Assembly (NCBI GenBank): GCA_009869945.1
Contig: WIXG01000594.1
Coordinates: forward strand, 1 to 34,735
Direction: 5' to 3'
Length of the DNA: 34,735 bases
Origin: Mesaphorura yosii
Taxonomy: Eukaryota; Arthropoda; Collembola; Poduromorpha; Tullbergiidae
Each line of letters begins with the position of its first letter. The stretch's first letter is position 1. The notes beneath the pieces are model-generated. The model saw only the letters and a program-made list of their open reading frames with translations. It did not search any database and was not told the DNA's origin. The position numbers were made by a program, and so were the translations under genes. This document shows positions 1-29,380 of the stretch, one piece after another.

Positions 1-1165
1 TCATATCCAGCGAAGACGAAGAAGAGCAGCCAGAAGGGAAGAAAATCTGCAGACTCAAGAAACAGGAGGAATTGGAACAAGAAAAAACAGAGTTCAGAAA
101 AGACAAAGAAGAATTTAGAAAAGAGAAGGAAAGATTCTGGCGTGAAGAAGGAGAATTAAAGACCGAGCGAGACGAATTGAAGAAAGAAAGAACAGAAATA
201 GGCCGAGAACGAATGGAATTGAAAGTGGACAGGGAAGATTTGAGAACAGAAAAAGAAAATTTAAGCAAACAGCTAGAACAAACCAAACATCAGAAGGAGG
301 AGATTAAGCGACAGGAAGAAAAGTTAGAAGGAGAGAAAGCAGAAATTAGTTCACAAAAAGAACGACTAGAGAAAGAGAAGGCAGAATTTGAAACAGAGAA
401 GAAAGAACTACGGAAACAAAAGGAAGAAATTGAACTACGAGAAGAGGTATTTCAGAAGGAGAAAATAGAAAATCAGAAATTAAAGGAAGAAATATCGGAT
501 ATAAAGAGAAACAGGAAATTAGGAGAGGGAAGGAAGGAAAAGGCTACTAAGTCTGAGAATGAAGAAAAGGAAGAACGGAAGGGACAAGTGGAAGAAGAAG
601 CAGGTGACGCTGCTTCAGTTAAGGATTGTAGCGACGAGGAGGAGGAGAAAGCGGCAGGAGCAGCAAGAACGCACAAATGCCACGAATGTGGTAAAGTCAT
701 GATCATAAAACAATTTCAAAAAATTATTAGTAAATAATACATGTCATTTCAGGTAAAACATACTCGCAACGGCCGGCATTGCTCCGTCATGCCAAGAGTC
801 ACAACCCTGAATCGTTGCAGCACACATGTGAAGCCTGTGGCAAAATTTTTACCCGCCGAGAAGGCCTTAAGAAGCATAATTGCAAGTAAGCCACTCATAC
901 CATCCATACCAGTCATACCACCCATACCAGTCATACCACCAATATCAGTCATACCTCTCATACCACCCATACCAGTCATACCACCCATACCAGTCATACC
1001 ACCCATACCAGTCATACCACCCATACCAGTCATACCACTCATACCACCCATACCAGTCATACCACCCATACCACCATACCACTCCTACCACCCATACCAG
1101 TCATACCACCCGCGTAAGAAATGCAAATTGTTTATTTTATTTTCAGGAAAGAAGCGGTTCAATAG
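1..1165 (+). CDS. Coiled-coil protein with C-terminal C2H2 zinc fingers (5' end missing)
   Basis: The reading frame is open from the first base, so the start lies outside the window. Proposed exons are 1-690, 753-885 and 1147-1165. Exon 1 encodes about 220 residues made almost only of Glu, Lys, Arg and Gln with heptad-like spacing, a long charged coiled coil. A 62-bp GT-AG intron splits a zinc finger: CHEC at the end of exon 1 joins GKTYSQRPALLRHAKSH in exon 2, giving a normal C-x2-C-x12-H-x3-H finger. A second finger, CEACGKIFTRREGLKKHNC, ends in Cys instead of the last His. The third exon is optional: the TAA at 887-889 overlaps a GTAAG donor at 886-890, and splicing to 1147 would replace it with five residues and a TAG. 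A nuclear DNA-binding or scaffold role is inferred from the fingers. I do not recognise an orthologue. Confidence 0.7.
895..1111. repeat. CATACCACC/CATACCAGT 9-bp minisatellite inside an intron
   Basis: The array is built from 9-bp units CATACCACC and CATACCAGT, mostly alternating as an 18-bp higher unit, with a few variants such as CATACCTCT and CACCAATAT. Because 9 is a multiple of 3, several frames stay open and would read as Ile-Pro-Pro/Ile-Pro-Val or Ser-Tyr-His/Pro-Tyr-Gln; these are not taken as protein. It begins about ten bases after the GTAAG donor at 886 and ends before a TTTTATTTTCAG acceptor at 1146, so it fills the last intron of the zinc-finger gene. The same unit fills an intron of the neighbouring transposase gene. 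Confidence 0.9.
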
Positions 1166-1167
1166 AA

Positions 1168-1173
1168 TTTATT
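1168..1173 (-). terminator. Poly(A) signal of the transposase gene
   Basis: AATAAA on the minus strand, about 52 bases past the transposase stop codon. It lies directly after the proposed last coding exon of the zinc-finger gene, so the transcripts of the two convergent genes would overlap. Confidence 0.45.
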
Positions 1174-1213
1174 CATATAAATTAAATTAATGTAAACATG
1201 AATTATTGCTCTC

Positions 1214-1219
1214 AATAAA
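1214..1219 (+). terminator. Poly(A) signal of the zinc-finger gene
   Basis: AATAAA on the plus strand, 49 bases after the TAG at 1163-1165. It supports 1147-1219 as a terminal exon and sits only 6 bases from the stop codon of the convergent transposase gene. Confidence 0.55.
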
Positions 1220-1224
1220 TTGTA

Positions 1225-2735
1225 TTACAAATTTATAAACTTATTTGGTCCTGGATATACTGCCTTAATATCATTAAAGAAGTCAAGAAGTTGTGGTCCA
1301 TAATTATGTTGTCCAAGCCTGTTGTCCAATTCAAGCCGATACAGGAACTCAGCGATATACTGATCCACAGATTCTGCATAGCAAAAAATGAATTTCAGTG
1401 TAAAATAACAATACAGGTGCAATGATCTATAAGAATACCGTCACTTCCAGTACGTTTCACGAACTTCTTGAACTTAGACCACATGCATTCAATCCCATTC
1501 GTAAACACTTCTGGGAATAACGGGTTGACAAAATTGTACTTGTGTGTGACGGTCTCATGAGCAGCAAATCCAAGCTTCTCAACGCCAATGTAACTTTTGT
1601 GGTCATCAGTTATGAGAATGGTGCCTGGCAGGACGTACTTCTTCAGAACAGGCCACAATGTCTTTTGTTTTCTGTTGGGTACGCGGACGATAAAGCGTTG
1701 TTTAGTTTCCCGGCAGATTCCACCGAAAATCCAAACACTTTCACCGCGAATTCGATGTCCCCTGTTGTACTTCCTACGAAATAAGTGTGCTTCATCTACT
1801 TCAACCCATTTTCCAGGTCCCCCAATTTTAGCCCAGCGTGCGCACATGACAGCTCGGCAAACCTGTTTAATTAGTTACAACGCGATTACTCTTCGGCCAG
1901 AAACACTGCTTAAAAGTTGTTTGGCTAACCTCTCTGCAAGTCGATGTCCAGTTTACAATGGTGTGCTCCGGCAGCTTTGTATCAACCATGGTAAGCGCAA
2001 ATGGCATTCGGTAAAACCAGTGGATTATGAGCTCAAAATTCTATCCACAAAGATTATAATAAATAGTACATTGCTCATAGCATATACCACCTTTACCACT
2101 CGTGCCACCATACCACCCATACCACCATACCACCCATACCACCATACCACCCATACCACCATACCACCCATACCAGTCATACCACCCATACCAGTCATAC
2201 CACCCATACCACCCATACCACCCATACCACCATACCACCATACCACCATACCACCATACCACCCATACCACCATACCACCATACCACCATACCACCATAC
2301 CACCATACCACCCATACCACCCATACCACCATACCACCCATACCACCCATACCACCCATACCCACTCACACCGTTCATATCATTCATACAAGGCATTCCA
2401 CACAGCCATGCCCTTTCGCGATACAAATATGCCTTTACCTTGAGGAATCCGAGGTGGCTTCTTTCAAACCATGTGTTTTTTGTTGGGCTGAATCTTTTCC
2501 CGCAACTTCTGGCAGTGCAATACCACCTGAATCCGAGCTTACTTTGTGCATCCATGTGCCTAAGCAGGAACTTGCTTCCACATACGCATTTGGCTTTCAT
2601 TGGTATCAAGTCGAGGTGTTCAAAAAGTCGTCGAGCTGATTCGTTATCACTAATTGCACGAGCCAAGTCCGTAATTCCGCACCCTTTCTTCCCAGACTTG
2701 AATAAATTTCCAAAATCAATTTGATTTTGAGCCAT
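1225..2735 (-). CDS. Merlin/IS1595-type DDE transposase, four exons
   Basis: Exons on the minus strand are 2735-2439, 2040-1930, 1862-1439 and 1373-1225, joined by GT-AG introns of 398, 67 and 65 bp that all keep frame, giving about 326 residues. Exon 1 holds a zinc-ribbon-like part (CVCG about 38 residues in, then WYCTARSCGKRF) followed by a WFERSHL segment. Exons 2-3 read as one helical linker. Exon 3 carries the RNase-H-like catalytic core: D159 in WVEVDEAH, D222 or D223 in ITDDHKSY, a THKYNFVNP block, and E261 in NGIECMWSKFKKF. Exon 4 gives the YIAEFLYRLE tail. This matches the cut-and-paste Merlin superfamily, the eukaryotic relatives of bacterial IS1016/IS1595. The length is normal, the DDE triad is complete and no stop or frameshift is seen, so it may be active or domesticated. 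Terminal inverted repeats were not identified. The first intron is packed with minisatellite. Confidence 0.82.
2106..2372. repeat. CATACCACC/ATACCACC minisatellite inside transposase intron 1
   Basis: This array mixes 9-bp CATACCACC and 8-bp ATACCACC units with two CATACCAGT units near 2170-2195. It lies within the 398-bp intron (2041-2438) of the transposase gene. On the sense strand of that gene the array reads as G-rich GGTATGGTGG units. The mix of 8- and 9-bp steps means no frame is kept through it, in contrast to the strictly 9-bp array at 895-1111. Long Trp-Tyr-Gly/Met-Gly readings on the minus strand are repeat translation, not protein. Confidence 0.9.
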
Positions 2736-2966
2736 TTCTACGTCTTTTGATCCACGGACAGTGAAAATTAAAGTTAAATTTAGGGCAGGTAACAAAGTTT
2801 TACAAAGTATCGCAAAGTAAACGAAACACAAATAATGGTATTGTTGAATTTCACACAACAATATTTGCCACGATAAATTCAAAGTTCCGCGCCGAGCACG
2901 TGCATAGTCTTCAACATAAAGAGAAATAAGTTTATGCAACGGCATAGAGAGGCAGGAGTGTGTCCG

Positions 2967-2998
2967 TCCATACCCATACCGCATACCACCCATACCAC
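2967..2998. repeat. Short third block of the CATACC repeat
   Basis: About three to four degenerate units (CATACCCATACCGCATACCACCCATACC-like, in the same orientation as the two larger arrays). It sits about 230 bases upstream of the transposase start codon. Confidence 0.7.
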
Positions 2999-3071
2999 TT
3001 TGCACTTTGCCGGATAACTGCAACTCAGCCGATTTTATATTACCATTTTATATTACTTAACAACGTATAAA

Positions 3072-26371: not shown

Positions 26372-28035
26372 ATGAGTAGCAAGTCGCCGGTGTCGACAGC
26401 GGCGTCATCGATATCGTGGAGCTTCTGGGTCCGAGTTATCGTCACGTGCCTGATAGTTTTATGGGTTTTCCAAAGTCAGATCCAGCCAGTCGGCTCGCAT
26501 GCCGGGCACGGGCACAGTCATGACCATGCAGGGCAAGGGCATGGCCACGGTCACGGTGGGCATGGGCATTCGCACGACCATTTCGACGACGAGGAGGACC
26601 TTCCACCTCCTTCAGCAGCGTACAAATACTCTCGAGAAGCTAACGAGGCAGCCGCTGCCGCCAAGCAGGCACACCAGCAGCAACAGACGACGGTAATTAA
26701 TAATTAAGCTCCTCCAGCGTTTTGGCTTCGGCCTCTATTCAGGCACGTTAATCCTAATTAATGTGATTCCTTTGCAGTCTAAGCCTCCTGCAGCTACAGC
26801 TGAAGGCAGCCACAGCCACCAGCATCACCACCATGACGAGCACGAACACGAAGCCTATGCTCAAAAGCCAAAGATTCCGGTTCCCGCAAACCCCAACATT
26901 TGGTTCGAAGCGATTACCAGCACCCTCCTCATTTCTGCAGCTCCGTTCTTCATCCTGTTCCTGATTCCGTTGGATGGATCGAAAGAGAAGGAGCCGTTGC
27001 TGAAAATCTTGCTGGCTTTCGCATCCGGCGGTCTGCTAGGTGACGCTTTTCTCCACCTGATTCCTCACGCACTGATCGCGAAGGCTGAAATAGATGCGGC
27101 AGCGGGTAAAAGCAAAAGTGGAGGGCACCACGGCCACTCACACGGCGGAGGCTCACACGGTCATTCCCACGACGAACTCGGAGGGCACGACCTCAGCGTC
27201 GGAATTTGGGTGCTCATTGGAGTTCTCACGTTTTTACTCGTTGAGAAGTTTATCAGAATTGTGCAGGGAGGTCACGGACACTCACACTCCCATCACGACT
27301 CCGAAGACGAGAATTCACATTCTCAAGGTAAAGCCAAAGATAGCGAGCAAGAAGATGCGGAGATGGAAAATCCTGTGCAGAATCGGAAGGACAAAGGGAA
27401 GGGAAGCCCCAAGAATAAAGACAAGAAGAAGGACCAGAAATCCACTGCCAAGACCAAACCTGCTGCAGCTGCTCCAGCACCCGCACCAAGGAAAGAGATC
27501 AAAGTGTCTGGCTACCTGAACCTCGCCGCTGATTTCACTCACAATTTCACCGACGGACTCGCAATCGGTGCTTCTTACCTGGCGGGCCGTTCCATCGGTC
27601 TCGTGACAACATTCACAATTTTGCTACACGAAGTCCCACACGAGATTGGAGATTTTGCGATTCTTATCCAGTCGGGTTGTTCCAAGAAGAATGTAAGCCG
27701 TTAGAAAATTAGTATTTCGGCGTTTGGAAATTTAATTGCTAATTGTAAATTTAATCAAATACTATTTTTCTGGGTTTCAGGCTATTTTTCTGCAGTTGAC
27801 AACTGCGCTCGGTGCTCTTTCGGGTACAATCGTGTCATTGCTCGCTGCAGGCGGCGTGAACGACGCAGCCACGGTATGGATCCTTCCATTCACAGCCGGC
27901 GGCTTCATTTATATCGCAACTGTATCTGTGATCCCCGAACTGCTCCGGGAGTCTACGTTTAAGCAAAGCGTGTACGAAGTGATTGCTCTCCTCGGTGGTG
28001 TCTACATGATGATACTGATAGCAGAGTTTGAGTAG
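26372..28035 (+). CDS. Catsup: ZIP7-type zinc transporter (SLC39A7/Catsup), three exons
   Basis: Exons are 26372-26692, 26778-27692 and 27781-28035, all phase 0, giving about 496 residues. ZIP7 releases zinc from the ER/Golgi lumen to the cytosol; Drosophila Catsup also affects catecholamine synthesis and Notch/EGFR trafficking. Residues 15-35 form a signal or first helix. His-rich stretches follow ([10 protein letters not shown] near 50-75, [13 protein letters not shown] near 115, [16 protein letters not shown] and [13 protein letters not shown] in the middle), as expected for lumenal and loop metal-binding segments. The core signature is complete: [13 protein letters not shown] in helix 4 and [17 protein letters not shown] in helix 5, where the His and Asp/Glu residues line the zinc path. 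The intron in front of [15 protein letters not shown] joins the remaining helices, and the C-terminus has [15 protein letters not shown]. The ATG at 26372 is the first in frame. Confidence 0.95.
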
Positions 28036-28163: not shown

Positions 28164-29380
28164 TTATGATGATACGAGAACTGATACGGAGTCATCTTGT
28201 ATCCCATTTAACCATCGACACTCGGTCCACTTTATGGTGATCTTTCTAATTACCGTGAAGTCTTCCGGGATGTGTCGAGCGTAGAATAATTCTGCCATCA
28301 ACACAACGAAGCTACGTGTAAGACCACCACCCAAGAAGAGGTTCATAAACATGCGAAACCTCGACGAAAAGTCGAGGAGACGACCCAGGCGAGACGGGTC
28401 AGACGCAGGAAAATCAGCACTCCAGTGCTCGAGAGATAAATTCCTACGCACATGCATTAAATCTTCAAGGTATCGACCGTTTCCCTCCCAAAATCCATAA
28501 ATTCTTGACTCAATCAAGCGACTGCTTCCCCGAGCAAACTTTTGCTTAAGGTGAAAAACGAATTCTCCCATGCCCACGGTGTCTTTGAACATTTCAGGCA
28601 CGATCTCGCAACTCGGGAAATGGCGGAGGAGCTCACCCATGTAGTATTTGACGACGTACTTGCTTGTGAGCGTGGCTAGGTGCGTGTGTCTCCATGTCAC
28701 GGTGTGGACTTTGTAACCCTCCAGAATGTTATGGAACTCGTAATCGCAGAAGAGAAGCTTGTCCCATACTTCTCGCGGGATTTGAACCGTATCAGCTCGT
28801 ATTCGTAGTACAAGTGGGTGTGGCAGTTCAGGTGACTCCAGCCGTTGGCCAATGAAACGTACATTCGATAGCTTTCTTCCAGAAGCAGCTGGTGATTCGT
28901 CTCTATGCCGGCCGGACGTGCTGGCTCGATGATGGACCTCGTGACGAAGGTTTCGTACGCGCCGAGCAGTGCGATGGCCGTCAGCGACAAGATCAAGTGC
29001 ATTCCAAGGACATGGGCCAAAGCCATGCTTGCCGAAGCAGAATGGCGAGGCTCTAAAATAAACTGCCTGCTGGCCATATTTCTCCGAGCACCATGGAGCA
29101 TAGGCATAAAGCATGAAAAGCATGAATTCAGGTGTAGTGGAATCCATGACTTTTACCACCCGACAAAATCTAAATGCTACTGGCCAATGTTCACCTACGA
29201 CAAAATCCACCCGTACCAAATGCCACCCATGCCAAGACAATGCAAAATACTGTCGGTCTGCTCTCGCAACATGAACTGGCCAAAACAGTGCAGGTCCACT
29301 AACGGGTAAGTCTCTATTTCGGACCCAGGAATGGAAGGAATGAAGGATGGAAAATTTGTACATGCCACTGCTCCCAACAC
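28164..29380 (-). pseudogene. Ionotropic receptor remnant with frameshifts
   Basis: Receptor-like sequence runs across two minus-strand frames. The 3' frame (stop at 28164) holds an S2-lobe-like part (TLTSKYVVKYYMGELLRHFP, VPEMFKDTVGMGEF, RGSSRLIESRIYGFWEGNG) and a last membrane helix (FRMFMNLFLGGGLTRSFVV). The frame at 29107-28697 holds the preceding helix and start of S2 (GMHLILSLTAIALLGAYETF, then ETNHQLLLEESYRMYV). The switch between them is near 28790, and a second switch near 29060 returns to the first frame, which has a pore-like CSEKYGQQ. A piece at 29380-29195 again uses the second frame. No start codon, signal peptide or N-terminal half was seen. I read this as a decayed IR copy; sequencing error is the alternative. 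The family call rests on helix order and S2-like motifs. Confidence 0.5.

Follow-up and report, generated by a model that had tools for sequence, protein, structure and literature searches.

An end repeat of a Merlin-type transposon, probably copied into introns of two genes of the same element and amplified there, in Mesaphorura yosii

The window, a 34,735-nucleotide stretch of the springtail Mesaphorura yosii (contig WIXG01000594.1, herein referred to as C594), opens with two convergent genes in which the same short tandem repeat occupies introns on both sides. This locus raises the question of how two separate introns came to hold one repeat. The following features were found in the window:

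1–3030, no strand assigned: right-hand part of a Merlin-type DNA transposon; the left end lies off the contig and 1–1190 presumably belongs to it
3–1165, plus strand: coiled-coil/C2H2 zinc-finger gene, 5' part missing; exons 3–690, 753–885 and 1147–1165 (stop), from the spliced translation
691–752 and 886–1146, plus strand: introns of the coiled-coil/C2H2 gene
891–1111, plus strand: CATACC array in intron 2 of the zinc-finger gene; 18-mer, 12.8 copies, score 281
1225–2735, minus strand: Merlin transposase gene; exons 2735–2439, 2040–1930, 1862–1439 and 1373–1225; 326 aa
2041–2438, minus strand: transposase intron 1, mostly array; donor GTAAAG, acceptor GGATAG
2084–2362, plus strand: CATACC array in transposase intron 1, placed by tandem-repeat scores; decayed units to about 2400
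2951–3030, minus strand: right terminal inverted repeat (TIR); core 3002–3030, reading GGCTGAGTTGCAGTTATCCGGCAAAGTGC inward, then four GGTATG units (2969–2996)
3031–3038, no strand assigned: expected right-hand target duplication GATTTTAT, read from the flank; its partner is not in the assembly

The first-pass annotation had described arrays of one type in both introns, in the same plus-strand orientation and close to the splice sites, and coordinates and unit counts confirm this. Exact CATACC was found 56 times on the plus strand of bases 1–3030: 22 times in intron 886–1146, 30 times in intron 2041–2438, and 4 times in a third block at 2969–2996. The rest of the window has a single further CATACC (14899), and the other-strand form GGTATG only at 27873 and 30528. 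The second array (2084–2362) scores 397 as a 9-mer with 32.6 copies and 418 as a 17-mer with 16.3 copies. The first array starts 5 nt inside its donor and ends 35 nt short of its acceptor; the second lies 76 nt from its donor (with decayed units to about 2400, read by eye) and 43 nt from its acceptor. The third block, previously reported as another short array, is real, with four units, and turns out to be part of a transposon end (2951–3030). A tandem-repeat row at 29203–29235 was dropped, its resemblance to the unit being loose.

The coiled-coil/C2H2 gene matches Pfam zf-C2H2 with 33 bits (cut-off 25.2), and its intron 886–1146 has donor GTAAGC and acceptor TTTTCAG. Removal of intron 2041–2438 and two small introns yields an uninterrupted transposase of 326 aa. 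The only Pfam family found in this protein was DDE_Tnp_IS1595 (PF12762; E 8.8e-16, 58.7 bits, cut-off 27), and Zn_Tnp_IS1595 was absent from its Pfam matches. The nearest named homologues belong to the springtails Orchesella cincta (52% over 80% of the query) and Allacma fusca. The intron limits fit GT–AG, and splicing of both genes is predicted from homology. The unspliced transposase frame (2025–2735, minus strand) is open through the array and would give 236 aa with a tail rich in Gly, Tyr, Met, Trp and Val; this openness is possibly due to chance, since the repeat unit has no stop in any minus frame. The array was rejected as coding sequence: the read-through frame exists, yet the complete DDE domain requires splicing.

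The repeat was searched in the whole assembly (93.0 Mb). The exact 18-mer CATACCACCCATACCACC gave 14 matches (12 in C594, one each in C321 and C887; reversed control 0), and a 24-mer with up to 3 mismatches gave 22 (18 in C594, two each in C321 and C887; control 0); these counts are lower bounds, because arrays may be under-assembled. Every one of these matches, the 14 exact and the 22 near ones, falls in C594 or in one of two further fragments that are ends of the same element. Thus, the arrays are not common everywhere; had they been, this would have spoken against the earlier proposal of a common origin and a link to Merlin. The proposal holds, with all matches confined to copies of one Merlin element. 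A host minisatellite occurring outside the element is ruled out in this assembly by the same matches. That a general host minisatellite reached both introns by chance is highly improbable: the arrays do resemble ordinary minisatellites, assemblies lose arrays and nothing further was found, but every match lies in copies of this Merlin element. Bases 1–1170 of the window have only self-matches in the assembly, besides array matches in C594, C321 and C887.

The outer and inner parts of the third block co-occur five times in the assembly with at most 1 mismatch (C321, C427, C560, C594, and C887). A second search for the TIR parts returned the same five exactly and, at 3 mismatches, three more (control 2). 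Of the five ends, four are no more than about 170 bp from where their contig stops. The right-type ends (C594, C427, and C560) are identical at 166 of 167 and 106 of 106 bases and stop sharply at ..CTCAGCC; the sequence that the window copy shares with C427 and C560 reaches base 3030. The left-type ends (C321 and C887) stop at ..GTACAGCC. The flanks of C321 and C560 share 8 of 8 bases, GCTTTTTG, and the other five left/right pairings share 1–5 of 8; a simple calculation puts the odds that six pairings yield one full match by chance at about 1 in 10,000. For the window copy, neither the left end nor the duplication partner was found in the 93.0-Mb assembly, and GATTTTAT agrees with the two left flanks found at 5 and 2 of 8 bases. 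At both end types, the CATACCACC unit (GGTGGTATG inward from the right end) sits just inside the TIR core.

These ends agree with the Merlin superfamily, for which TIRs of 24–462 bp with GG ends, 8- or 9-bp duplications, and DDE_Tnp_IS1595 without Zn_Tnp_IS1595 are expected. The TIRs start with GGCTG.. at both end types and measure about 80–105 bp including the units; 8-bp duplications were found for the C321/C560 pair (8/8) and in two-ended relatives (9/9), the window copy itself lacking a partner; and the transposase has the expected domain composition. GG ends and 8-bp duplications do not agree with CACTA/En-Spm, which has CACTA ends and 3-bp duplications.

The two convergent genes probably travel in a single element, since no TIR core was found between them and relatives of the left-hand, zinc-finger gene lie just inside Merlin-type TIRs elsewhere. 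Alignment of the TIR core to window positions 1–2000 gave scores of 14 (plus) and 19 (minus), within the range of 200 shuffles, which averaged 15.6 and reached at most 23; a positive control scored 62. A small element nested in the introns was likewise rejected: no TIR core was seen by eye beside the arrays and none aligned in 1–2000, positions 2001–2438 being read by eye. The coiled-coil gene has its best relative in the terminal part of contig C141 (46% over residues 3–93). This contig has a Merlin-type TIR with a GGCTCA array, followed by a J-domain/coiled-coil gene in the expected direction (Pfam DnaJ, E 1.6e-12), whose coiled coil is 48% identical to window positions 12–263 over 84 residues. 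C141 stops inside the gene, so its zinc fingers and second TIR are out of view. Additionally, a J-domain exon was found inside a 625-bp element with an 8/8 duplication (C420), and in C410 a disrupted J-domain gene adjoins one TIR-like sequence. By comparison with C141, the window gene itself may begin with a J-domain.

Some observations count against the two-gene reading. No contig spans a whole element, and the left end and duplication partner of the window copy were not found. In addition, a 993-bp element with an 8/8 duplication (C415, L014:1251–2243) carries transposase exon 1 and a C2H2-like piece on one strand, unlike the convergent order in the window; this piece is below the Pfam cut-offs (20.4 vs. 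25.2 bits and 20.7 vs. 40). If the element held the transposase gene alone, the zinc-finger gene would be a host gene or captured fragment alongside, as the left end off this contig and the other orientation in C415 would allow. We consider this unlikely, given the missing TIR core between the genes, the zinc-finger gene relative beside the Merlin-type TIR in C141, the J-domain exons located within or next to elements (C410 and C420), and the CATACC unit shared by the zinc-finger gene's intron. The first-pass view of two separate neighbouring genes probably does not hold. The two seem to belong to a single transposon, one encoding a DDE transposase and the other a coiled-coil/C2H2 protein with a relative that has an N-terminal J-domain; the third block is this transposon's terminal repeat. 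This very copy presumably holds both.

Outside this genome, no J-domain homologues were found with residues 1–110 at E ≤ 1e-3; with residues 8–90, 6 proteins were found at E ≤ 10, the top one at 1.8e-6 with 48% identity, and no springtail was named among them. Further Merlin families are represented by C165:58554–59255 and C419:30822–31601 (38% and 31% identity to the window transposase), and no J-domain, coiled-coil or zinc-finger relatives were found in the 3.7-kb stretches searched.

Another short motif, GACTAGA, is repeated through the introns and 5' region of the J-domain genes and always lies on the strand of the gene. It was found 10 times on the plus and 0 times on the minus strand in C141 (L071:382–1086; simulated mean 0.12, maximum 2 of 1000), with none in the C141 exons seen, and 5 and 0 times in C410 (L073:300–1110; simulated mean 0.07, maximum 2).

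The two intron arrays have a 52-bp identical stretch in common, and the CATACCAGT unit occurs in both introns and in none of three TIR arrays compared. Both facts support exchange between the arrays, proposed earlier as local gene conversion. The opening 21 bases of the first array also recur unchanged within the left TIR array. In two transposase relics (C415 and C490), the same codon carries the donor and the repeat is absent, so the transposase intron is older than its array. The first-pass suggestion that the introns were born from the repeat therefore lacks support for the transposase intron. An introner-like origin, in which introns are born from or inserted as a tandem repeat, would suit arrays that nearly fill both introns and end close to splice sites; it is very unlikely, however, considering the repeat-free relics, which bear on the transposase intron only, and an Allacma protein, marked partial, that begins at exon 2. 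Introns of relatives were searched for their own TIR unit in six stretches (C415, C490 for the first 300 nt after the donor, and two each in C141 and C410). It was found in none, and the intron arrays thus seem a trait of the window element's family rather than of the whole group.

A degenerate TIR-core pattern was used to survey related families. It matched 63 places with up to 3 mismatches (control 4), of which the 41 with up to 2 were examined and the 22 with 3 left out; the 41 are not independent, with both ends of an element and several copies per family counted. As read by eye from the listing, AGTGG(C/T) lies within 26 bases of the core in 16 of 41 places and GGCTC-type units occur in 18. 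Neither type is present in seven: C415 twice, C776, C666, one C554 end, C14, and C697, the last two of which look like chance matches. Short-period repetition was significant (p ≤ 0.05) in 20 of the 41, against an expectation of about 2; six of the 20 had a best period of 5, deeper in small elements. The three right ends of the window element's family failed this test (p 0.37–0.44), being too short. All nine two-ended elements among the 41 have perfect 8-bp duplications. Small non-autonomous relatives of 126–302 bp with perfect 8-bp duplications are C38, C227, C33, C259, C553, C554, C608, and C1114. Related TIRs thus often bear differing short repeats just inside a conserved core: the place of the end repeat recurs, and its letters differ between families.

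We hold with reasonable confidence that the intron repeat is an end repeat private to this Merlin element, which was carried into one intron of each of its two genes and multiplied there. The element would comprise, in order, the left TIR (off the contig), the J-domain/coiled-coil/zinc-finger gene directed rightward, the transposase gene directed leftward, and the right TIR. The CATACCACC subterminal units would probably serve as clustered docking sites, bound by a protein of the element that helps join the ends; such a role, and the binding itself, is suggested by analogy. Under a simple finger-code rule the predicted site is GNGGNA, which fits GTGGTA; it is a lead only, because GNGGNA also fits 18% of shuffled units. 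Copying would have run from TIR to intron, gap repair or slippage carrying end-repeat copies into the two introns, where they expanded. The intron arrays, by the same analogy by-products of repair or slippage, may persist because splicing removes them, and would then have exchanged sequence with each other.

Neutral slippage without docking or copying is a real possibility, though short of probable. A GTGG(T/C)-type seed by the TIR core would expand and the arrays would have grown separately, as the 16 bp by which the C887 end array exceeds that of C321 and the relatives without intron arrays would suggest. This account has difficulty with the 52-bp stretch and unit variant common to both introns, the 21 bases common to the first array and the left TIR, and the recurrence of the end-repeat position in many families.

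A bolder version of the favoured docking reading is doubtful. Here, a TNPA-like J-domain/coiled-coil/C2H2 protein would bind GTGG(T/C)-type repeats that are specific to each family and evolve together with its fingers and, through the TIR copies, pair the ends with the transposase; the intron arrays would serve it as internal sites for restraining transcription or splicing of both genes.

The DDE_Tnp_IS1595 transposase, GG ends and 8-bp duplications are those of the Merlin superfamily (PMC8101967). The same paper reports internal tandem repeats in several Merlin families and, for one Symbiodinium family, a C-terminal ZZ zinc finger in some copies and an antisense ORF judged to be chance. The present element differs in having a separate coiled-coil/C2H2 gene, which probably includes a J-domain, and a single repeat common to ends and introns. 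A limited open-literature search, with Repbase and subscription papers outside its scope, turned up no case of a Merlin element paired with a J-domain or C2H2 gene; as far as this search shows, the separate partner gene and the shared repeat are new. CACTA/En-Spm elements (PMC2613891) likewise combine subterminal repeats of family-specific sequence, divergent between families, with a second protein, TNPA, which recognises these repeats, needed for transposition; repeat binding in the present element is putative. Unlike here, they have a different transposase, 3-bp duplications and different ends. Subterminal repeats are usually read as docking sites, and those of piggyBat restrain activity (PMC11707139). 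The Tetris foldback transposon of Drosophila virilis also has tandem repeats within its TIRs that amplify, but its units are about 220 bp, its satellite-like arrays lie outside genes and it is apparently non-autonomous (PMC4079207).

Since sister elements carry an end repeat in the same place with different letters, Merlin here may be a two-protein transposon with fast-changing docking repeats. If this is right, Merlin would join CACTA in having a second protein together with fast-changing end repeats, and a single genome would offer many families for a comparison of repeat and partner protein. The locus would also show a route from a transposon end repeat to an intronic minisatellite.
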